64,000 nucleotides of DNA from Caulobacter endophyticus (GTDB lineage Bacteria; Pseudomonadota; Alphaproteobacteria; Caulobacterales; Caulobacteraceae): positions 1 through 64,000 of the forward strand of contig NZ_QDKQ01000063.1 in assembly GCF_003116815.1 (NCBI RefSeq), in the 5' to 3' direction. The translations under genes and the position numbers were made by a program. Positions 41,289 through 51,422 of the stretch are shown in pieces (positions within the stretch are counted from its first letter, which is position 1; every line of letters starts with the position of its first letter). Below the pieces are notes generated by a model, which searched no databases, was not told the DNA's origin, and worked only from the letters and a program-made list of their open reading frames with translations.

Positions 41289-41375
41289 GCGCATCCCTTA
41301 CGGGCGCGAAGCCACTAGGCGAAACTGACATTTCAGCCTACCTATCAGTCCGGAGACAACCTTCGGAGCGGTTCC

Positions 41376-42143
41376 GTGCGCCAGCCTTCGCCCCTGCGGG
41401 CCCCTGACGACGCCCCCTACAACGTCGCTGGAGGCGGCGCGCGGTCGCGCATGCTGGTGCTGGACGTCTGCTCCTCGTCGGGGCTGGAGGACTGGTCGCC
41501 GGACCTGCAGAAGGCCAAGGTCTACGAGAAGATCCTGCTCGACCTGATCCTGGGCGAACTGCCGCCCGGCGCGCGCCTGGACGAGCAGTCGTTGGCCGCC
41601 CGTTACGACGCGGGCCTGGCGGGCGTGCGCGACGCCCTGGGGCGCCTGGCGCTGGAAGGCCTCGTCATCCGCCGCGCCCGTTCGGGCACGACGGTGGCGC
41701 CGCTGGACCTCGTCGACCTGCGCCAGGGCTACGAGGCCCGGGCGTTGATCGAGCCGCACTGCGCGGGCCTGGCCGCCCGCCACGCCTCAAAGGCCGATAT
41801 CGCCGCCATCAAGGCCGTGTTCGACGACGCCGAGGCCGCCGCCAAGGCCCGCGACCTGCCGGCGCTGGTGGCCATGGACCAGCGCTTCCACGCCGCCGTG
41901 GCGCGCGCTTCGGGCAACCTCGCCCTGGCGCGCATCCTGATACCCCTGCAGCACAAGGCCGCCCGTTTCTGGGTGTTCTCGTTCGGCGGCGCCACCGAGG
42001 CCGAACTGATGGCCGACATCGAGCAGCACCGCGAGGTCGCCGACGTTATCGCCAGCGGCGACGTCGAGGCCTCCAGGGCGGCCATGATGCGGGTGCTGAG
42101 CGTGACGCCCGAGGCCGTGCAGCGGCCGCCGGTGGAAGCCTAG
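41376..42143 (+). CDS. GntR family transcriptional regulator (FCD subfamily)
   Basis: 255 residues from GTG 41376, preceded by GGAG at eight bases; an ATG at 41450 is possible but its GGAGG is too far. Winged helix at about 45-110 (KVYEKILLDLILGELPPGAR, LDEQSLAARYDAGLAGVRDA, LGRLALEGLVIRR), then an FCD ligand domain with metal-type residues (RALIEPHCAGLAARHA, MDQRFHAAVARASGN, DIEQHREVADVI). FCD regulators sense organic acids and control catabolic genes. The nearest catabolic operon is the TonB/RutAB-like one at 43613, with a toxin-antitoxin pair in between. Confidence 0.9.
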   Translation: MRQPSPLRAPDDAPYNVAGGGARSRMLVLDVCSSSGLEDWSPDLQKAKVYEKILLDLILGELPPGARLDEQSLAARYDAGLAGVRDALGRLALEGLVIRRARSGTTVAPLDLVDLRQGYEARALIEPHCAGLAARHASKADIAAIKAVFDDAEAAAKARDLPALVAMDQRFHAAVARASGNLALARILIPLQHKAARFWVFSFGGATEAELMADIEQHREVADVIASGDVEASRAAMMRVLSVTPEAVQRPPVEA

Positions 42144-42217: not shown

Positions 42218-42236
42218 AATCCGGATGGAGGCATGC

Positions 42237-42761
42237 ATGTCGCTCGCAAGGCGCAAACCCGTCGAAGTCGCCGCCGGTCCGGGCGTGCTGGACCTGTCGC
42301 GGTTCTCCGCCGCCAACCGTCGGCGGCTCAGCGCCCCGGGGCTTCGCACCTTCCTGTCGATCGCCGACCTGTGGGGCCTGACAGAGGACGAGCGACTGCT
42401 GGTGCTGGGCCTGCCGTCGCGCTCGACCTACTACAACTGGATCAAGGCGGTGCGGGAGCATCGCGACATCACGCTCGACCTCGACATGCTGACCCGCATC
42501 TCGGCGGTGTTGGGCGTGCACCAGGCGCTGGGCGTGCTGCACGCCAGCGAGCGCGAGGGCGTGGCCTGGCTGCGCAATCCGCACGCCGCGCCGCTGTTCG
42601 GCGGCCGCGCGCCGATCGCGCTCCTGGCCTGCGGAACCCAGGACGGCCTGATCAGCGTGCGCCGCTTTCTCGACGCCGCGCGCGGCGGGCTCTACATGCC
42701 GCCGGGCGATATCGATCGTGATTTCCGACCCTACGAAGACGCCGAGATCGTCTTCTCGTGA
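42237..42761 (+). CDS. Xre/MbcA/ParS-type antitoxin
   Basis: 174 residues. ATG 42237 is chosen because GGAGG lies five bases before it; an ATG 12 bases upstream precedes that site. The N-terminal half has an HTH (LRTFLSIADLWGLTEDERLL with SRSTYYNWIKAV), and the C-terminal half is the toxin-binding domain (LTRISAVLGVHQALGVLHAS, EREGVAWLRNPHAAPLFGGR, API). It binds and blocks the RES toxin and its own promoter. It overlaps the toxin gene by 4 bases, as expected for a pair that must be made in step. Confidence 0.92.
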   Translation: MSLARRKPVEVAAGPGVLDLSRFSAANRRRLSAPGLRTFLSIADLWGLTEDERLLVLGLPSRSTYYNWIKAVREHRDITLDLDMLTRISAVLGVHQALGVLHASEREGVAWLRNPHAAPLFGGRAPIALLACGTQDGLISVRRFLDAARGGLYMPPGDIDRDFRPYEDAEIVFS

Positions 42762-43432
42762 GCGGCGAGGCCCTCGTCCCGGCGCCGCGTCCGGCCTTCC
42801 GCCTGATCCCGTCGCGATTTCCGCCGATCGGCCTGTTCGACACCGTGGCGACGGCGGCCGACCTCGACGCGGTGATGGACCTGGCCGGCTGGACCAACGA
42901 CCGGCTGGTGGCCGAGCGCATCGCGCGCCTGCCGGTGGCGGAGCGGGTCTACGGCCGGCTCAACGCCAGCATCGTCATGGCCTCGTTCCTGCACGTGGCG
43001 CCGGGCGGCATGCGCTTCAACGGTCCCGATCTGGGCGCCTGGTACGCCGCCGCGCGCCTGGCCACGGCGGTGGCCGAGGTGGCCCACCACCTGCGCCGTG
43101 AAGCGGCCGCCATGGGCGCGGCTTCGCTGAGCCGCCAATACCGCGTCTACACCGCGCGGCTGGAGGGGCGGTATCTCGATCTTCAGGGGCAGCGGGCCGC
43201 GCGGCCCGACGTCTACGCCAGCGACGACTACGCGGCCGGCCAGGTGCTGGGCGAGGCGGTGCGCGCCTCGGGCGGGGCGGGGATCGTGTTCGACAGCCTG
43301 CGCCACGCCGGCGGGATCAATGTCGTCGCACACCGCCCCCGCAACGTTCAAGACGTGACGCAGGGCGACCATTACGAACTGCGGGTGCAGGCCGCCTCGC
43401 GCCGCATCGAGGCTCGGAAGCTGGCCGCCTGA
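42758..43432 (+). CDS. RES-domain toxin (NAD+ phosphorylase type)
   Basis: 224 residues from GTG 42758. The RES fold residues are visible: Arg86 in PGGMRFNGPD, Tyr96 and Glu107 in AWYAAARLATAVAEVAHHL and Ser180 in GIVFDSLRH followed by GGINVV. RES toxins such as MbcT degrade NAD+ and ParT modifies phosphoribosyl pyrophosphate synthetase. All key residues look intact, so the toxin should be active. Length is above the 150-190 typical, with about 40 extra residues at the N-terminal side. Confidence 0.92.
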   Translation: MSGEALVPAPRPAFRLIPSRFPPIGLFDTVATAADLDAVMDLAGWTNDRLVAERIARLPVAERVYGRLNASIVMASFLHVAPGGMRFNGPDLGAWYAAARLATAVAEVAHHLRREAAAMGAASLSRQYRVYTARLEGRYLDLQGQRAARPDVYASDDYAAGQVLGEAVRASGGAGIVFDSLRHAGGINVVAHRPRNVQDVTQGDHYELRVQAASRRIEARKLAA

Positions 43433-43538
43433 CGGCCCTCCGTGGCTTGTCGGCGACAGGACGCGGAACATCCCGCCAACTGTGAGGCTTTCCCGACACA
43501 GGGTCTTGGCAATTCGTTCTAAAATGTCAGAAGAGATT

Positions 43539-43552
43539 TTGACGAACGTCAA
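43539..43552. promoter_or_regulatory. palindromic operator upstream of the TonB operon
   Basis: TTGACG-AA-CGTCAA with perfect 6-base arms, 60 bases before the TonB receptor start, next to an AT-rich stretch (TTCTAAAATGTCAGAAG). Candidate binding site for the regulator of this operon. Confidence 0.5.
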
Positions 43553-43612
43553 GTGATCCCCATTTGGTGCGGCGAGGCGGGGCCATGGTCCCGCTCTCAG
43601 GAGCCCGCCCGC

Positions 43613-45985
43613 ATGTCCCGCCGCCTCGCCCTGCTCGCCGCTACTGCCTTCGCCGGCCTCGCCGCCGTCTCGGCCGCGCGCGCCGACGATCAGTTGGCCG
43701 AGGTCGACGCGGTTGTGGTGGTCGCCCGCGACCGCAATGCGGGCCTCTTGGAAAAGCAGCCCAACGACACCGTCTTCGGCCTCGACAAGCCGCTGATCGA
43801 GACGCCGCGCTCGGCCAGCTTCGTCTCCGACCTGACGCTGCAGCGCTACGGCATCGAGACCATCGACGGCCTGACGGCGGTGTCGCCGGGGACCTACACC
43901 GCCAGCTTCTACGGCGTGCCCGGCGCCCTCAACATCCGCGGCACCCTGGCCGAGAACTACTTCCGCGGCTTCAAGCGCATCGAGAACCGCGGCACCTACG
44001 CCACCCCGATCGGCGCCGCCGACCAGATCCAGATCGTGCGCGGCCCGCCCACCCCGATCTACGGCTCGGGCAAGGTCGGGGGCATGCTCAACTTCATTCC
44101 CAAGTCCGGCAAGGGCGAGGGCGGCTACCTGACCGCGCCCGAAGGCGAACTGACCGCTGCCTTCGGCAGCTACAACCGCAAGAACGCCACCGCTCAGGTC
44201 GGCCTGCCGGCCAATTTCGGAAACGTGGTCGGCGGCGTGCATGTCTATGGCGAGGTCGAGGACAGCCATAGCTACTATCGCGGCATCTATCCGCGCCGTC
44301 AGACCCTGCAGGTGTCGTCCGACTTCGACCTGGGCGGCGGCTGGAGCACGGCGCTGGGGGGCATGGTCTATCGCTCGAAGGGCGACGTTCAGACCGCCGG
44401 CTGGAACCGCCTGACGCAGGACCTGATCGATAACGGAACCTACGCCACGGGCCGCGATATGAGCCTAGTGGACGCCGACGGCAACGGCCGCCTGACGCCC
44501 AACGAGACCGGAGGGGCGCTGTACCTGCCCTATTACGGCTTCCCTACCAGCGACGCGGCCCACACGCTGGATACGGGCGTGGGCACGACAAAGCTGTCGC
44601 CGCGCACGGTCTATGTTTCGGGCGCCGACTTCTCGAAGACGGCGACCAACACCCTCTATTTCGACATCGCCAGGAAGCTGTCGCCTGACAGCGCGGTGAA
44701 GCTGCAGCTGTTCTACGACGCCCTGGAGAACAAGCGTTTCGTCTCCTACGGCTATCCCGCGCGGTTCGACAGCAATGTCTGGGAGGCGCGTCTGACCTAC
44801 GAGTTCGCCAATCGCTTCCTCGACGAGGCGGTGGTCGCACGCTCGTTCGTCGGCGCCTCTTATCGCGGCTTCAAGGGTCGCCGGAGGGAGAGCTACAACA
44901 GCGGCCTGATCGCCCTGGACCGCCGCGACCTGTCGGTGGGCCAGACCGCCACCGACCTGATCGGCAGCCCGTTCACCGACCCGTCGATGACCTGGGAGAA
45001 CGACAACCACAGCAAGTGGACGCAGGCCGGGATCTTCTTCACCACCGACATCAAGGTGGGCGAGAAGCTGAACCTGGTGCTGGGCGGTCGCTACGACGAC
45101 TACGACGTCACGTCGGAAGACACCGGATCGCTGAGCTTCACCACGCCTGGCGAGCAGCGCGCCGCCAAGGGCAAGGGGACCTACACCGCCAGCGCCACCT
45201 ACAAGGCCCCGTTCGGCCTGATGCCCTACATCACCTACGCCAAGGCCAGCGCGCTCGAGATGAGCCAGGCCGGCGACATCAACCCGGGCCTGGTGGCCGA
45301 CGCCGGCGACGCCTGGCTGTCGGACAGCGACCTGGCCGAGGCCGGGGTGAAGTTTCAATGGCTGAGGGGCGCGCTGATCGGCTCGCTGGCAGGCTATCGC
45401 CAGAACCGCACCCAGCTGATGGGCATCAACGGCGACCCGGCCGGCACGCGCTCGAAGGGCGTCGAGCTGGAGGTGCGCTGGCTGGCCAGCCAGCATTTCA
45501 GCTTAACCTTCTCGGGCAACACCCAGCGCACGACGGTGAAGGGTCCCGACACCTCGTTCCAGTACGTGCCGACCTATACGGCGGGCGTGCCGGGGACGCA
45601 GGGCTATGGCGGCTCCTACGTGGTGTGGAGCTTCGCCAGCATCCGGCCGGGCGACTACGACTACACCCTGATCCCGAAATCGGTGGTCAGCCTGTATGGC
45701 GCCTATGCGTCGGACCAGTACGACTGGGGCAAGCTCTACGGGACGCTGGGCGTGACCCACGTGACCAAGACCTCGGGCACGGTTCCTGGCGCAGTGGTCT
45801 ATCCGGCCTATGCGGTCGTGAACGGTTCGCTGGCCTACGAGCACGGCCCCTACACGGCCACGCTCAACGTCGATAATCTGCTGGACGAGCTCTATTTCAC
45901 GCCCGTCGCCGACACCTACGCCAATCTCGCCGCCCTTCCCGGCAAGGGGCGCGAGTGGCGGATCACCCTCGCAAGGCGCTTCTGA
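43613..45985 (+). CDS. TonB-dependent outer membrane receptor
   Basis: 790 residues from ATG 43613 with signal peptide MSRRLALLAATAFAGLAAVS and AARA cleavage region. A TonB-box-like VDAVVVVA follows, then the plug (TPRSASFVSDLTLQRYGIET, VPGALNIRGTLAENYFRGFK, IQIVRGPPTPIYGSGKVGGM) and a 22-strand barrel ending in the Phe of LARRF. The style is that of siderophore-type receptors, but no siderophore gene is near. It shares a 3-base overlap region with the following MFS gene and should bring the substrate of this operon across the outer membrane. Confidence 0.94.
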   Translation: MSRRLALLAATAFAGLAAVSAARADDQLAEVDAVVVVARDRNAGLLEKQPNDTVFGLDKPLIETPRSASFVSDLTLQRYGIETIDGLTAVSPGTYTASFYGVPGALNIRGTLAENYFRGFKRIENRGTYATPIGAADQIQIVRGPPTPIYGSGKVGGMLNFIPKSGKGEGGYLTAPEGELTAAFGSYNRKNATAQVGLPANFGNVVGGVHVYGEVEDSHSYYRGIYPRRQTLQVSSDFDLGGGWSTALGGMVYRSKGDVQTAGWNRLTQDLIDNGTYATGRDMSLVDADGNGRLTPNETGGALYLPYYGFPTSDAAHTLDTGVGTTKLSPRTVYVSGADFSKTATNTLYFDIARKLSPDSAVKLQLFYDALENKRFVSYGYPARFDSNVWEARLTYEFANRFLDEAVVARSFVGASYRGFKGRRRESYNSGLIALDRRDLSVGQTATDLIGSPFTDPSMTWENDNHSKWTQAGIFFTTDIKVGEKLNLVLGGRYDDYDVTSEDTGSLSFTTPGEQRAAKGKGTYTASATYKAPFGLMPYITYAKASALEMSQAGDINPGLVADAGDAWLSDSDLAEAGVKFQWLRGALIGSLAGYRQNRTQLMGINGDPAGTRSKGVELEVRWLASQHFSLTFSGNTQRTTVKGPDTSFQYVPTYTAGVPGTQGYGGSYVVWSFASIRPGDYDYTLIPKSVVSLYGAYASDQYDWGKLYGTLGVTHVTKTSGTVPGAVVYPAYAVVNGSLAYEHGPYTATLNVDNLLDELYFTPVADTYANLAALPGKGREWRITLARRF

Positions 45986-47250
45986 TGACGAACCACCAGA
46001 TCCAGCACCGGCCGTGGCTGCTGCTGGGCGCCTTCAGCCTGCTGCTGTTCCTGATCACCGCGGCGACCTACTCGTCGCTGGGCGTGGTGATCCCGGCCAT
46101 GGTTCCGGAACTGGGCTGGAGCTGGCAGAACGCGTTCCTGGGCTTCACCGTCATGGGGGTGGCCACCGGCGCCTCGTCCTGGCTGCCGACCCTGCTGATC
46201 CGCCGTTGGGGCGTGCGGGCGACGCTGGTCGCGGGCGCGGCGGTGATGGCCGCCGGCCTGGCCCTGCTGGCCAGGGTGCAAGGCCTGCCGGCCTATTTCC
46301 TGGCCACGGCCCTGCTGGGGATCGGCTTCCAGGCCGCGGCCCTGATCCCGGGCACGCACGTGCTGTCGGCGATCTTCCGCCAGCGGGCCCTGCCGTTCGG
46401 GATCTACTTCACCAGCGGCGCCCTGGGCGGCGTGGCCGGCCCGCTGCTGGTGCTGGCCAGCCAGGACGCCTTCGACGGCCAGTGGCGGACCTACTGGGCG
46501 CTGCAGGCGGTGGTCATCGGCCTTCTGGGCCTGCTGTGCGCCGCCGTGGTCGGCGGGCCGAAGTGGCTGGAGGAGGCCGGCCGGGCCATGGATCGCCTGA
46601 CCGCCGCCGAGGCCAAGTCCGCTCCGGCCCATCCGCGCGTCTTCCGCACCGACCACGACTGGAGCGTCCGCGACGCGGTGCGCACGCCGCAGTTCGCCAT
46701 ACTGGTGGCGGCCTATTTCAGCCACCTGCTGGCCGGCGTCACCGCCGCCAGCCTTACCCAGGCCCACCTGACCGAGCTGGGCGTGGCCGGCGTCGTCGCG
46801 GCCGGGGCGCTGAGCGCCGAGGGCCTGATGCAGGTCGCCGCCCGCATGGCCGGCGGCGCGGTGGGCGACCGCATCGATCCGCGCTGGCTGCTGGTGCTGG
46901 CCCAGGGCCTGCTGGTCGCGGGCCTGCTGGCCCTGTCGCACGCCACCACCCTGCCGCTGCAGGCGCTGTACGCCGTGGGTGTTGGCCTGGGCTTTGGCCT
47001 GACGGTGCTGGCGGTGAGCCTGCTGCTGCTCAACTATTTTGGCCGGCGCAACAACGTCGAGCTGTTCTCGCTGGTCTGCCTGGTGGGCGCGGTGTCGGCG
47101 GCGGGACCGTTCATCGGCGGCTTCATGCGCGACCGGCTGGGCAGCTTCACCCCGACCTTCCAGCTGTTCGCGGCCCTGACGGCGGCGGTGTTCGTCGCCG
47201 TGCTGCTGATGCGTCCGCCCAAGCCGCGCACGGCCCCGGGGCGAGGCTGA
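45985..47250 (+). CDS. MFS transporter of the TonB/RutAB-like operon
   Basis: 421 residues from ATG 45985, overlapping the receptor stop (TGATG). Twelve membrane helices, with MFS loop motifs (LLIRRWGVRATLVAGAAVMA between helices 2 and 3; GGAVGDRIDPRWLLVLAQGL in the second half). Similar in layout to MFS carboxylate carriers. It should take the substrate from the periplasm into the cytoplasm for the next two enzymes. 103 bases separate it from the monooxygenase gene. Confidence 0.92.
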   Translation: MTNHQIQHRPWLLLGAFSLLLFLITAATYSSLGVVIPAMVPELGWSWQNAFLGFTVMGVATGASSWLPTLLIRRWGVRATLVAGAAVMAAGLALLARVQGLPAYFLATALLGIGFQAAALIPGTHVLSAIFRQRALPFGIYFTSGALGGVAGPLLVLASQDAFDGQWRTYWALQAVVIGLLGLLCAAVVGGPKWLEEAGRAMDRLTAAEAKSAPAHPRVFRTDHDWSVRDAVRTPQFAILVAAYFSHLLAGVTAASLTQAHLTELGVAGVVAAGALSAEGLMQVAARMAGGAVGDRIDPRWLLVLAQGLLVAGLLALSHATTLPLQALYAVGVGLGFGLTVLAVSLLLLNYFGRRNNVELFSLVCLVGAVSAAGPFIGGFMRDRLGSFTPTFQLFAALTAAVFVAVLLMRPPKPRTAPGRG

Positions 47251-47353
47251 AGTGGAGGCCGCCGCCAACCTCTGACCCGGTCTCGCGCCGTCACGCTTTT
47301 GGTCTATGGTCGCGCCTGACTCGTAAGGTGAACGGGCAGGCGTGGAGGCGACG

Positions 47354-48415
47354 ATGGGGCGTGACGGCGGGCGCAAGGAATTCGGCGTCTTCCTGCCCGT
47401 GGCCAACGGCGGCTGGATCGTTTCCAGCACCACGCCCACGCTCGACGGCCTCTATCCGCAGAACCGCGCCGCCGCTGTGCTCGCCGACCAGATCGGCCTC
47501 GATTTCGTGATGTCTATGGCCAAGTTCCGGGGGTTTGGCGGCGACACCGACCACTGGGGCGCGGCCCTGGAGTCGGTGACCCTGATGGCCGCCCTGGCCG
47601 AGGCCACCAGCCGAGTGAAGATCTGGGCCACCCTGCACCCGCTGCTGCAGAACCCGGCCGTGGCCGCCAAGATGATTTCCACCCTGGACCACATCAGCGG
47701 CGGCCGCGCGGGCCTCAACATCGTCGCCGGCGCCTATCGCGACGAGTTCGCCCAGATGGGGGCCTGGGACGACGGCCTTGACCACGACGCCCGCTATGCC
47801 CTGGCCGAGGAGTGGACGCAGCTGGTCAAGCGGCTGTGGACCGAGGACAGCGTCAGCCATGAGGGCCGCTTCTTCACCCTGACCGACTGCCAGTCCAGGC
47901 CCAAGCCGCTTTCGCAGCCGCGCCCCGAGCTGATCTGCGCAGGCGTCTCCGAGCGGGGCTTTTCCTTCGCGGTGACCGAGGCCGACGCTTGCTTCATCGG
48001 CGGCGAGGACGAGACGGCCCTGCGCGACGCCAGCCGCCGGGCCAAGGCGCGGGCGGCCGAGTTGGGCAAGGCGATCCGCACCTACGCCATGTGCACCATC
48101 GTGCACGCGGCGACCGACGCCGAGGCGCAGGGCTTGGCCGATCGCTATCGCGACGGGGTGGACATGGGCGCGGTCACCACCATGTTGTCCAACTGGGGCG
48201 TGCCGCCCGAGCGCCTGGCCGAAACCGCCGCGCGCCAGGGGGCGTTCATGACCCGCACCGTGATCGGCGCGCCGGTGACCTGCGGCGCGCAGATCCGGGA
48301 CCTGGTCGAAACCTGCGAGCTGGACGGGCTGATGCTGATCTTTCCCGACTACGAGACCGGCCTCTCCATGTTCGGCGCCGAGATCCTGCCGGGCCTGCGC
48401 GAGGCCTATCCATGA
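47354..48415 (+). CDS. LLM-class flavin monooxygenase, RutA-like
   Basis: 353 residues from ATG 47354, with GGAGG five bases upstream. The sequence follows pyrimidine oxygenase RutA closely in pattern: EFGVFLPVANGGWIVSSTTP, FVMSMAKFRGFGGDTDHWG, ESVTLMAALAEATSRVKIWA, HISGGRAGLNIVAGAYRDEF, AQMGAWDDGL, ELICAGVSERGFSFAVTEAD. RutA opens the uracil ring with FMN and O2. The other Rut genes (C, D, E, F, G) are missing, so the substrate may be another N-heterocycle or amide. It overlaps the next gene by ATGA. Confidence 0.9.
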   Translation: MGRDGGRKEFGVFLPVANGGWIVSSTTPTLDGLYPQNRAAAVLADQIGLDFVMSMAKFRGFGGDTDHWGAALESVTLMAALAEATSRVKIWATLHPLLQNPAVAAKMISTLDHISGGRAGLNIVAGAYRDEFAQMGAWDDGLDHDARYALAEEWTQLVKRLWTEDSVSHEGRFFTLTDCQSRPKPLSQPRPELICAGVSERGFSFAVTEADACFIGGEDETALRDASRRAKARAAELGKAIRTYAMCTIVHAATDAEAQGLADRYRDGVDMGAVTTMLSNWGVPPERLAETAARQGAFMTRTVIGAPVTCGAQIRDLVETCELDGLMLIFPDYETGLSMFGAEILPGLREAYP

Positions 48416-49071
48416 ACGCCAGGCCGATCACCGCGCAGGACGGCCTGGCGGACTGGATCGCCCCGTCGCGGACGGCGCTGGTGATCGTCGACATGCAGGT
48501 GGACTTCGCCGCTCCCGATGGCGTCATCGGCCGGTTCGGCGTCGACCTGTCTTCGGTCGCGGCGGCCCTGGAGAAGGCGCAGCGCCTGGCGCAGGCCGCG
48601 CGGGCCGCTGGGGCGCCCGTGGTGTTCGTCGGACTGGAGACCACGCCGCAGAGCGATCCTCCGACCCTGCTGGAGCGCATGCGCAGGCGCGGCGGCGATC
48701 CAGAGATCGAGCGGGTGATCTGTCGCAAGGGAACACGCGGCGCCGACTTCCACGGCCCCTTGCCCGCGCCGGGCGAGCTGGTGATCCAAAAGCCGCGCTA
48801 CAGCGCCTTCGTCGGAACCGACCTTGACGCGCGGCTGCGCTCGCGCGGCGTCGACACTCTGATCGTCTGTGGCCTGACCACCGAATGCTGCGTCGACAGC
48901 ACGGTGCGTGACGCCTTCCACCTCGACTACCACGTGTTCGTCGCCGCCGACGCCTGCGCGGCCTACGAGTCCGACCTGCACGAGGGCGCGCTGAAGAGCC
49001 TGGGGCTGTCCTTCGCCCTGACGCCGGACGCGTCCGAGATCGAGGACGCCTGGGCGGCCGCAGCCCGCTAG
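48412..49071 (+). CDS. isochorismatase-family cysteine hydrolase, RutB-like
   Basis: 219 residues. Catalytic triad of the family: Asp in LVIVDMQVDFAAPDG, Lys in VIQKPRYSAFVGTDLDARLR and Cys in VCGLTTECCVDSTVRDAFHL. In the Rut pathway RutB hydrolyses the ureidoacrylate made by RutA; the layout here (ATGA overlap with the RutA-like gene) strongly suggests it acts on the product of its neighbour. N-terminal extension of about 18 residues. Last gene of the operon, followed by a terminator. Confidence 0.92.
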   Translation: MNARPITAQDGLADWIAPSRTALVIVDMQVDFAAPDGVIGRFGVDLSSVAAALEKAQRLAQAARAAGAPVVFVGLETTPQSDPPTLLERMRRRGGDPEIERVICRKGTRGADFHGPLPAPGELVIQKPRYSAFVGTDLDARLRSRGVDTLIVCGLTTECCVDSTVRDAFHLDYHVFVAADACAAYESDLHEGALKSLGLSFALTPDASEIEDAWAAAAR

Positions 49072-49084
49072 GGACCGGCGCACG

Positions 49085-49118
49085 AAAAAGCCGCCCGGGC
49101 GGAACCCGGGCGGCTCGT
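49085..49118. terminator. bidirectional intrinsic terminator
   Basis: GCCGCCCGGG (49090-49099) pairs with CCCGGGCGGC (49105-49114) around CGGAA. AAAAA lies to the left (a T-run for the minus-strand porin gene) and TCGTTT to the right, so it stops both the degradation operon and the porin gene. Confidence 0.88.
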
Positions 49119-49142
49119 TTCCGATCCTTCGGCCCGCGGGGC

Positions 49143-49835
49143 TTAGAAGGTCGCCTTCAGGGTGGCGGCCACGCGCGACTTGTAGATGTCGCCCCAGCCG
49201 TGCTCGGCGGTGTCCCAGTAACGCAGGTCCAGGCCGAGGTTGCCGGTGATGGCGTAGGTGGCGCCGACGTTCCAGGTGGCGTAGCCGTCGGTGTCTTCGT
49301 AGTCCTGCTTGCCCAGGGCGCCGCTCAGGCTGAGCTTGTCGTTCAACGGGTAGGAGGCGTTGACTTCGTAATAAAGCGAGCTGCCGACGTCGCCGGTGTA
49401 CTTGGGCGAGTAGTAAAGGGCGCCGCCGACGGTGGCCTTGCCGATCGGCTGCACCACGGCGGCCTTCAGCTCGGTATAGCTGTACTTGCCGGGGGTCAGG
49501 CCCTTGTCCTTCGAGTAGCCGTAGTAGAGCACGGCGAAGTCGAACGAGGTCGTGCCGACGGTCGGCTTCACGCCGGCGTAGAAGTCGATTTCCACGGACG
49601 GGTCGTCGGCGCCGAAGTCGACGTTCGAAGCCCACACGCCGGCATAACCGATGCCGTAGCCGAGATCGACGCCGCCGAACACTTGCGGGTCTTCGTTGGT
49701 CTGGCTGACGCCGCGGAACACATAGTCGCTGGCGATGCCGACGTTGTACGAGAGGCTGACTTCCTGAGCCATGGCGGCGCCGCCGAGGGCGACCGAGGCG
49801 GTGGCGGCGGCCAGCGCGAGCTTGAAGAACTTCAT
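49143..49835 (-). CDS. TorF family putative porin
   Basis: 230 residues with signal peptide MKFFKLALAAATASVALGGA and AMAQ cleavage. Start EVSLSYNVGIASDYVFRGVS, QTNEDPQVFGGVDLGYGIG, YAGVWASNVDF is the signature of the TorF/Gcw_chp family of outer membrane proteins, with alternating strands (YYGYSKDKGLTPGKYSYTEL) and a terminal Phe. AGGGG lies well placed before the ATG, and the leader has a poly-A stretch, both signs of good expression. It has its own terminator. Confidence 0.93.
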   Translation of the reverse strand: MKFFKLALAAATASVALGGAAMAQEVSLSYNVGIASDYVFRGVSQTNEDPQVFGGVDLGYGIGYAGVWASNVDFGADDPSVEIDFYAGVKPTVGTTSFDFAVLYYGYSKDKGLTPGKYSYTELKAAVVQPIGKATVGGALYYSPKYTGDVGSSLYYEVNASYPLNDKLSLSGALGKQDYEDTDGYATWNVGATYAITGNLGLDLRYWDTAEHGWGDIYKSRVAATLKATF

Positions 49836-50082
49836 CCGTGTTATCCCCTTTTTTGTTAGCCCGCTGGGATTGTGGTCCCAACTTGTGCGGCGCCTGCAAG
49901 CGCGTTCCTTCACAAGCCGGGATTAACCGCGGGCCATGCTTCAGTTGCAATCAGCGGGGGCACAGCGCCAGCATTAAGAACACGGATCGCCCAAAACTTG
50001 GGCAACTGTGGCGCATTTGCTGCAGCATCGGCGCATCGGCCACAGTTATCGTCAAGTTGTCGATCCGCGTTTGCCTGCGGCT

Positions 50083-50880
50083 TCAGCGCATCGACAGGGG
50101 CGCGGCGCCTAGGTGCAGGCCGGCATCGACCAGCAGGGTCTCGCCGGTGACATGGCGGGCGGCGGGCGAGGCCAGGAACACGGCGGCGCCGGCCACGTCC
50201 TCGGCGGTGGAGGCGACCTGCAGCGGCGTGGCCGCCGCCGCCCCGGCCCGCAGGCGCGCCACCCGGTCCTCGTCCATGGCCTTGCCGAACCAGGGGGTGT
50301 CGATGAAGCCGGGGCAGATGGCGTTGACGCGGATCTTCGGCGCAAGCGCCCGGGCCAGCGACAGGGTCATGGTGGTCATCGCCCCCTTGGAGGCGGCGTA
50401 GGGAACCGACGAGCCGTTGCCCATGACGCCGGCGATCGAGCTGGTGTTGACCACGGCGCCCGGACGCGGCGCGGCCTCCAGCAGGCTGCGGGCGGCGCGG
50501 ACCATTTGGAAGGCGCCGACCACATTGACCGAATAGAGCTTGAGAAAGTCTTCGGCGTTCACCGCGTCGAGGTCGCCGTGCTGCGGGGCGAACTTGGTCA
50601 TGCCGGCGTTGTTGAACAGGGCGTCGATACGGCCCGAGGGGGCGGCGGCCTCGACGATCCGGCGGCAGTCGGCGTCGTCGGCGACATCGCCCTTGGCCAG
50701 CAAGGCCTTGGCGCCGAGGGCCTCGACCTGGCGGGCGGTCTCCTCGGCCTCCTCGCCGCTGCGGGCGAAGTTGACCACCACGAGCCCCGCGCCCCGGCGG
50801 GCGGTCTCGACCGCAATCGCCCGGCCAAGGCCCGTCGAAGCCCCCGTGACCACCACCGTGAAGCCGTCGAAGTCCGTCAT
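50083..50880 (-). CDS. short-chain dehydrogenase/reductase
   Basis: 265 residues. Cofactor motif VVVTGASTGLGRAIAVETA, NNAG in ALFNNAGMTKFA, catalytic Ser in VVNTSSIAGVMGN and YAASKGAMTTM, and the classical end VTGETLLVDAGLHL. NAD(P)-dependent oxidoreductase with unknown substrate. Divergent from queF (86 bases between) and separated from the porin gene by a 247-base gap that holds nothing I can name. Confidence 0.92.
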   Translation of the reverse strand: MTDFDGFTVVVTGASTGLGRAIAVETARRGAGLVVVNFARSGEEAEETARQVEALGAKALLAKGDVADDADCRRIVEAAAPSGRIDALFNNAGMTKFAPQHGDLDAVNAEDFLKLYSVNVVGAFQMVRAARSLLEAAPRPGAVVNTSSIAGVMGNGSSVPYAASKGAMTTMTLSLARALAPKIRVNAICPGFIDTPWFGKAMDEDRVARLRAGAAAATPLQVASTAEDVAGAAVFLASPAARHVTGETLLVDAGLHLGAAPLSMR

Positions 50881-50966
50881 GGCGTCTCTCCCAAACGCGT
50901 GTTTGCGACACCGTAGCGAGGGCGCCGGCGCTTGTCTCGCGAAGGGCGGAGGCCTAAATCGCCGCC

Positions 50967-51422
50967 ATGACCGAACTTTCCGTGACCCAGCTGGGCCAGA
51001 CCGTCGCCGCTCCCGAAAGCCCGGAAGCCGCCGTCCTCGAGGCCGTGCCGAACCCGCAGAACGACGTGCTGTACCTGGCGCGCTTCGTGGCGCCCGAATT
51101 CACCTCGCTGTGCCCGGTGACGGGCCAGCCCGACTTCGCTCACCTCGTGATCGACTACGCGCCGGGCGACTGGCTGATCGAGAGCAAGTCGCTGAAGCTC
51201 TACCTGACCAGCTTCCGCAACCATGGCTCGTTCCACGAGGACTGCACCGTCAAGGTGGCCCGCAAGATCGTCGAGGTCGCCAAGCCCCGCTGGCTGCGCA
51301 TCGGCGGCTACTGGTACCCGCGCGGCGGCATCCCGATCGACGTCTTCTGGCAGACCGGTCCGGCGCCGGAAGGCCTGTGGGTGCCGGATCAAGGCGTGGC
51401 GCCATATCGCGGCCGGGGCTAA
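50967..51422 (+). CDS. queF: preQ1 synthase (NADPH-dependent 7-cyano-7-deazaguanine reductase)
   Basis: 151 residues, the short single-domain QueF. Catalytic Cys49 in [14 protein letters not shown] and Asp56 in the same motif; the QueF signature [20 protein letters not shown] follows with the NADPH/substrate Glu. It reduces preQ0 to preQ1 for queuosine in tRNA. ATG 50967; its stop overlaps the stop of the minus-strand gene at 51419 by four bases, so the two genes are convergent. Confidence 0.96.

Follow-up and report, generated by a model that had tools for sequence, protein, structure and literature searches.

A conserved gene set for probable uptake and ring opening, related to but distinct from the Rut pathway, in Caulobacter endophyticus

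The closest described systems to the one considered here include the Rut pathway of the Escherichia coli type, whose monooxygenase RutA requires residues T105, N134 and V136 for activity and binds its pyrimidine at the si face (excerpted text of PMC7662398), with W139 bordering the si-side cavity (excerpted text of PMC10005588). For the lumichrome route of Nocardioides simplex, the excerpted source has LumH open the ring hydrolytically, LumI (24 kDa) take away the ureide and LumM (52 kDa) hydrolyse the amine, before later steps by a Rieske dioxygenase and an extradiol dioxygenase, together with a P450, a thiamine diphosphate (TPP)-dependent decarboxylase and a xanthine oxidase, and it allows that variants of the route may exist (PMC12746152). 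A further point of comparison is 5-nitroanthranilate aminohydrolase (NaaA), which, according to an excerpt of its description, acts on compounds with an amino group in the ortho position to a carboxylate and takes that amino group off by hydrolysis (PMC10306065). In this report, we compare with these systems a locus of Caulobacter endophyticus contained in a stretch of 64,000 nucleotides (contig NZ_QDKQ01000063.1, positions 1 to 64,000 of the forward strand; the whole stretch analysed is termed the window), in which four close-packed genes of the + strand (43613-49071) encode a TonB-dependent receptor, a major facilitator superfamily (MFS) transporter, a luciferase-like monooxygenase (LLM) and an isochorismatase-type hydrolase, the putative amidase. 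An earlier note on this DNA, made from the sequence alone, had proposed an uptake and oxidative/hydrolytic ring-opening set for a compound other than uracil, and this is supported by scores outside the RutA range and by the separation of branches described below. The locus appears to represent a conserved uptake and ring-opening system that is not Rut and that is larger than four genes; among the papers listed by our literature searches, we recognised none as describing this gene set.

The monooxygenase and its amidase partner

By its sequence, the LLM is not RutA and is a member of a separate, RutA-related group. It scores 242.5 bits against the RutA family TIGR03612, under the curated cut-off of 498.3, whereas the same genome holds a true RutA at 684.7 bits. 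Across 101 relative genomes, 47 matches exceed the RutA cut-off (582.7-698.6 bits), 57 LLM-group matches fall below it (204.8-282.1), and none lies between; the group is carried by 41 of these relatives and is about 34-37% identical to RutA. In a tree computed without an outgroup, the two sets stand on opposite sides of a branch with support of 100. With two very distant outgroup rows added (branches of 8 and 10 changes per column, which drew a long-branch warning), RutA falls within the LLM group, close to the rows of Promicromonospora and Komagataeibacter, and the LLM group forms one clade in 0% of bootstrap trees. The suggestion that the enzyme is something other than RutA is upheld by the failure of all 57 group matches to pass the family cut-off and by the fully supported branch of the unrooted tree. 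A second suggestion, that RutC to RutG are missing, applies at the window locus, where RutC, RutD and the uracil permease set are not found and a receptor, an MFS transporter and an amidase are present instead; it does not extend to the whole genome, in which the true RutA (contig C34, 118000-136000) lies after genes that by eye resemble RutB, RutC and RutD, with no uracil permease noticed nearby.

RutA is also the nearest relative of the LLM in the PDB, by both sequence and fold (5wan; 203 bits, E 2.7e-33, TM score 0.85, 32% identity), the structure model having a mean predicted local distance difference test score (pLDDT) of 86.4 and an input alignment that included one RutA row. In a residue alignment of 100 LLM-group members and 30 true RutA sequences, from which duplicates and rows with fewer than 300 aligned residues were dropped, the oxygen-pocket residues T105, N134 and V136 (RutA numbering) are kept in 100/100 group members and 30/30 RutA sequences, and K69 and E143 are identical in all 130. 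The substrate side differs: the W139 position, tryptophan in 30/30 RutA sequences, is alanine in 97 and serine in 3 of the 100 group members, and L65, also invariant in the 30 RutA sequences, is methionine in 100/100. Because the oxygen pocket is unchanged while W139 and L65 are replaced, the chemistry is likely RutA-like and the substrate site enlarged.

The hydrolase has as its nearest families RutB (TIGR03614; 108.2 bits, under a cut-off of 377.95) and biuret hydrolase (106.1 of 370), and lies far below both cut-offs. Its probable catalytic triad, D27/K127/C160, is kept in all 101 partners recovered from 103 loci inspected. Neighbourhood counts were made on the 78 of 104 loci (100 distinct LLM proteins plus 4 plasmid loci) whose LLM gene is flanked by 7 kb or more on each side; many of these 78 are close relatives and hence they are not independent. 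The amidase gene is present in 78/78, and in 76 it lies on the same strand fewer than 200 bases after the LLM gene.

Longer gene sets, split loci and distribution

A second, longer copy resides in the same genome on contig C33, where genes for a receptor (83-84% identical to that of the window), an MFS transporter, an LLM (71% identical) and an amidase are followed by those for an M20-type hydrolase, a flavin reductase and a TauD-type dioxygenase. Among 57 relative loci, 27 carry this seven-gene set and 8 the shorter set of four (the window, L039-L044 and L046, of which L046 lies on a short contig); 18 have LLM and amidase genes without receptor or MFS, and 4 are rearranged or cut. The idea that the four genes make up the whole system therefore fails, since 27 of the 57 loci hold them inside the seven-gene set. 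Among the 78 counted loci, MFS genes occur in 59 and receptor genes in 53; the accompanying enzyme families are M20 (46), flavin reductase (40), TauD-type (40), VOC (33), SDR (32), Rieske (31), a second TauD-type (28), DODA-type extradiol dioxygenase (25) and formamidase-like (16). The M20 protein of the longer sets is nearest to NaaA (294 bits, E 1.3e-86 over residues 35-445). DODA-type and SDR proteins exceed their family cut-offs (332 bits over 233 and 335 over 298, respectively); the Rieske and formamidase-like proteins are below theirs.

In all 18 genomes whose LLM-amidase pair lacks a nearby receptor and MFS gene, a close receptor is encoded elsewhere in the genome. Nine receptor loci, from 7 of those 18 genomes and from genomes G002 and G012, were inspected, and each shows the order GntR-receptor-MFS and lacks LLM and amidase genes; in G012, the transport genes are present, and a genome search gave no LLM-group match. 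The genes after MFS in most of these loci resemble, by eye, those after the window operon (49143-51422), and this shared downstream region makes the window locus seem the same place as the GntR-receptor-MFS loci, with LLM and amidase genes added or kept. The four genes, whose lack of joint conservation would have counted against the earlier reading, stand together in some relatives and in others are split into GntR-receptor-MFS and LLM-amidase parts, an outcome that goes partly against that reading. Within the shared downstream region, an outer-membrane-like protein (49143-49913) and, by eye, a queF-like protein (50967-51422) are encoded, and both genes also follow the relatives' GntR-receptor-MFS loci that are devoid of LLM and amidase. 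At 12 loci with LLM-amidase pairs without transporters (L045, L048, L050, L055, L057, L061, L062, L066, L069, L071, L076 and L078), the pair adjoins a conserved block of genes that, by eye, resemble those for sphingolipid synthesis.

In a class-level search, 5 of 385 genomes, that of C. endophyticus included, hold an LLM-group member at 1e-70, and among the best 80 of 254 records the named ones include Caulobacter, Phenylobacterium, Rhizobium-labelled metagenome-assembled genomes, Komagataeibacter and Promicromonospora. A plasmid search with the LLM gave 64 records at 1e-60, of which most of the 30 listed are annotated as RutA; the four best matches (46-59% identity) are from Paraburkholderia graminis, Acinetobacter baumannii, Novosphingobium and Kozakia. 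The same search with the M20 protein gave three matches, in Paraburkholderia, Acinetobacter and Kozakia. On the Paraburkholderia plasmid the order is Tsx-family channel, MFS, LLM, amidase, M20, flavin reductase, and on the Acinetobacter plasmid MFS, LLM, amidase, M20, flavin reductase. The Kozakia plasmid reads flavin reductase, DODA, two TauD-type, VOC, LLM, M20, Rieske-type (annotated SRPBCC), MFS, amidase, formamidase-like, reductase, TonB receptor. The Paraburkholderia channel, of nucleoside type (42.8 over a cut-off of 27.2), weakens the earlier step from a TonB receptor to a scarce or bulky substrate, in that a Tsx-family channel there precedes the same genes. Caulobacters and sphingomonads, moreover, commonly have TonB receptors for small nutrients. 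Cupriavidus necator plasmid pENH92 (8872-20048) carries a RutA relative of greater distance (41%) together with RidA, a hydrolase, a ring-hydroxylating oxygenase, formaldehyde dehydrogenase and genes of riboflavin synthesis, a group that may serve an N-methyl pyrimidine.

The window operon, its probable regulator and candidate operators

All four operon proteins match their Pfam families above the gathering scores. The TonB-dependent outer membrane receptor gene (43613-45985, +; barrel 67.9 bits, plug 33.0) overlaps that of the inner membrane MFS transporter (45985-47250, +; MFS_1, 90 bits) in a TGATG junction; 103 bases separate the latter from the ATG of the RutA-related, FMN-dependent LLM (47354-48415, +; Bac_luciferase, 184.9 bits), whose frame is open from an in-frame GTG at 47342; and an ATGA overlap (48412-48415) joins the LLM gene to that of the RutB-related, isochorismatase-family cysteine hydrolase (48412-49071, +; Isochorismatase, 160.7 bits). 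The tight packing reported earlier can thus be read directly from the sequence. The terminator proposed behind the operon is less clear-cut: a terminator-like hairpin lies at 49090-49114 between the operon and the convergent gene at 49143-49913, and its segment (49080-49125) is stable (-27.2 kcal/mol, z -3.8), but its T tail on the + strand is weak and a mechanical terminator scan did not list it. A mechanical scan of 43400-49200 found no sigma-70-like promoter. The best NCBIfam match of the receptor is the TonB siderophore receptor family TIGR01783 (83.2 bits, under a cut-off of 223.5), no PDB chain matched it at 0.001 (phmmer), and its structure model (mean pLDDT 54.7) is too poor for fold comparison.

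Upstream lies a gene for a GntR/FCD transcription regulator (41376-42143, +; FCD 97.0 bits, GntR 54.9), the probable regulator of the operon, which, like the C33 copy, is absent from the earlier note's account; the GntR family is present in 22 of 39 loci in one count and in 28 of 78 in another. Matches to the pattern TRAAATGTCA stand in front of the GntR gene (TGAAATGTCA, 41326-41335, - strand) and in front of the receptor gene (TAAAATGTCA, 43520-43529, + strand), 2 being found in the window against 0.01 expected; genome-wide, the pattern has 3 sites in 5.42 Mb, 2 of them at this locus, and a control pattern has 1. Among the relatives' GntR-receptor-MFS loci, 6/9 have both sites, 2/9 one and 1/9 none, and the sites were present in none of 17 LLM-amidase loci examined. 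On sequence grounds, TRAAATGTCA is a conserved element of the region and a stronger operator candidate than the palindrome TTGACG-AA-CGTCAA put forward earlier as the operator. That palindrome is present exactly, at 43539-43552, but is poorly conserved: it is exact in 7 of 21 upstream regions compared (the window and L039-L044), imperfect though similar in L049 and disrupted in L161, a near relative, and 14 of 100 shuffled windows contain at least one match with up to one mismatch. A looser palindrome, GACATTT-N6-AAATGTC, occurs with 3 mismatches before both the window and the C33 receptor genes and has 34 strand-wise matches genome-wide versus 9 for a control. One palindrome match on contig C35, with 2 mismatches, was dropped, as it sits between unrelated-looking genes.

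Two further observations concern this region and its regulator. Genes for an Xre/MbcA/ParS-type antitoxin and a RES-domain toxin (42225-43432) lie between the GntR gene and the operon and have counterparts in other window-type loci. Elsewhere in the genome (contig C77, 332000-344000), a GntR protein 51% identical to that of the window is encoded together with another LLM and a flavin reductase, among neighbours that look by eye like riboflavin biosynthesis genes.

Proposed mechanism, rival explanations and known systems

We propose that the locus is a GntR-controlled scavenging operon whose substrate, to judge from the protein families, would cross the outer membrane through the TonB receptor and the inner membrane through the MFS transporter. 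The conserved residues suggest that the LLM, receiving FMNH2 from a flavin reductase whose gene lies elsewhere (the C33 copy includes one), would form a flavin-N5 peroxide in its RutA-type oxygen pocket and break a C(=O)-N bond of the ring on the si side. The amidase, with its conserved triad and constant pairing, would then hydrolyse the leftover ureide or amide and release nitrogen; in the longer copies, the M20-type enzyme may put oxygen in place of an amino group at the position ortho to the newly formed carboxylate, after which oxygenases would carry on. The substrate would be a ring amide other than uracil that needs more room on the substrate side. Judged on the sequences, uptake is highly probable, RutA-type C-N cleavage by the LLM quite likely, the amidase's acting second probable, and the M20 enzyme's acting third in the longer sets slightly favoured; for GntR-controlled scavenging with RutA/RutB-type ring opening as a whole, we see an even balance.

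Our leading guess for the substrate, held tentatively, is a fused pyrimidinedione (flavin-, lumichrome- or pteridine-like), because of the parallel with the published lumichrome route: its ureide and amine steps are ones for which the amidase and M20 enzymes would be fitting, here after an oxidative first step. If the LLM and amidase act on an aromatic-fused pyrimidinedione, the product would be an ortho-amino aromatic acid, the type of substrate used by the M20 enzyme's relative. Flavin or lumichrome itself is an unlikely candidate. It is similarly doubtful, though conceivable, that the genes form an undescribed oxidative, Gram-negative route for flavins, lumichrome or similar compounds composed of LLM, amidase, M20 and oxygenases, with the window operon as an abbreviated version that scavenges nitrogen and relies on the longer copy. 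The recurrence of the order MFS-LLM-amidase-M20-flavin reductase on the Paraburkholderia and Acinetobacter plasmids counts in favour of our preferred explanation, as do the kinship of the M20 protein with NaaA and the nucleoside-type channel before the genes in Paraburkholderia, and a series of observations weighs against it. The window operon itself has no M20, flavin reductase or TauD gene, and neither transport gene is nearby in 19 of the 78 loci. For the Paraburkholderia M20 protein, a Pfam comparison at 0.001 gave no family, and the M20 query found no match at 1e-30 among 394 Actinomycetes-class genomes, a set drawn around Promicromonospora that does not cover Nocardioides simplex. The closest matches of the linked Rieske protein are glycine betaine and carnitine monooxygenases and not any known ring-dihydroxylating enzyme. 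P450, TPP-enzyme and xanthine oxidase were not noticed among the recurrent families, in the course of counts that included no search aimed at them. A link to riboflavin lyase was rejected, since the second LLM encoded next to the Promicromonospora copy has DszA as its nearest match, at 224 bits against 156 for riboflavin lyase. Finally, the lumichrome route, as given in its excerpted source, was likened to the present system by reaction logic and protein sizes, and not by sequence comparison.

One rival, that the genes are a duplicate of RutA and RutB serving plain uracil or thymine and equipped with transporters of their own, would account for RutA and RutB as the best or near-best matches and for the kept oxygen pocket, but we consider it improbable in view of the true RutA in the same genome, the replacement of W139 and L65 in 100/100 group members, the lack of RutC, RutD, RutE and RutG at the locus, and the M20 and TauD partners of the longer sets, which have no place in the Rut route. 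The breakdown of an N-methylated or betaine-type cyclic amide, in which Rieske and TauD/TfdA-type enzymes would serve as demethylases or hydroxylases while the LLM and amidase open the ring, overlaps our preferred explanation and differs from it in the substrate put first. It draws on the affinities of the Rieske protein just mentioned, on weak matches of the TfdA-type proteins to gamma-butyrobetaine and trimethyllysine dioxygenases, and on the distant RutA relative on the Cupriavidus plasmid with its ring-hydroxylating oxygenase subunit and formaldehyde dehydrogenase; all these matches are, however, far below family cut-offs, and the Rieske gene occurs in only 31 of the 78 loci and not beside the window operon, so that we regard this rival as unlikely.

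Two other readings start from the wider LLM superfamily. Organosulfur scavenging, by an SfnG/SsuD-like LLM and a TauD-type dioxygenase releasing sulfite, is suggested by the match of the LLM to SfnG (172 bits, and also by fold) and by that of the C33 TauD-type protein to taurine dioxygenase (265.7 bits of a cut-off of 313). RutA nonetheless surpasses SfnG by sequence and by fold, the constant partner is an amidase with a RutB triad, the window operon is without a TauD gene, and the C33 protein is as near to the aryloxyalkanoate-type dioxygenase FT_T (216 bits) as to TauD (214), leaving this possibility very improbable. The degradation of a metal chelate or siderophore after receptor uptake, by an LLM resembling nitrilotriacetate (NTA) or ethylenediaminetetraacetate (EDTA) monooxygenase, would fit the siderophore-receptor family as the receptor's best match and the membership of both monooxygenases among LLM proteins. 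It is a more distant prospect still, given that RutA (203 bits) far outscores NTA (64-71) and EDTA (36) monooxygenase as a match to the LLM, that the receptor is without a PDB match at 0.001, and that a candidate GntR operator is present at the locus, with no sign of iron control noticed or sought.

Scavenging by RutA/RutB-type ring opening is of a known kind, and the substrate is possibly the more novel element. The occurrence of a widespread RutA-like group, found also on plasmids of Betaproteobacteria and Acinetobacter, with its own transporters, probable regulator and candidate operator makes direct substrate tests possible. If the fused-pyrimidinedione reading is true, the system would represent a second, oxidative solution for the breakdown of vitamin B2 remnants or pterins, with RutA chemistry re-aimed through an opened substrate side.

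Set against known systems, SfnG (dimethylsulfone monooxygenase) and other group C flavin monooxygenases share with the LLM a superfamily and a fold, at lower scores than RutA. NaaA (PDB 5k8p) is the nearest PDB relative of the longer sets' M20 protein, but it acts on a nitroaromatic, and the window operon lacks an M20 gene. With the lumichrome route, as excerpted, the system would share fused uracil ring opening, ureide removal, amino exchange, and Rieske and extradiol steps; the first opening is hydrolytic there (LumH) and would be oxidative here, where a TonB receptor and an MFS transporter are also present. With the Rut pathway, in which RutA cleaves uracil at N3-C4, it shares the LLM fold, the oxygen pocket, the cysteine-hydrolase triad and, as the likely order, ring opening followed by ureide or amide hydrolysis. 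It departs from that pathway in scores far below both family cut-offs, in the replaced substrate-side residues, in a TonB receptor and an MFS transporter in place of RutG with no RutC, RutD or RutE at the locus, and in longer sets that continue with M20 and TauD-type enzymes, in a genome that retains its true RutA.

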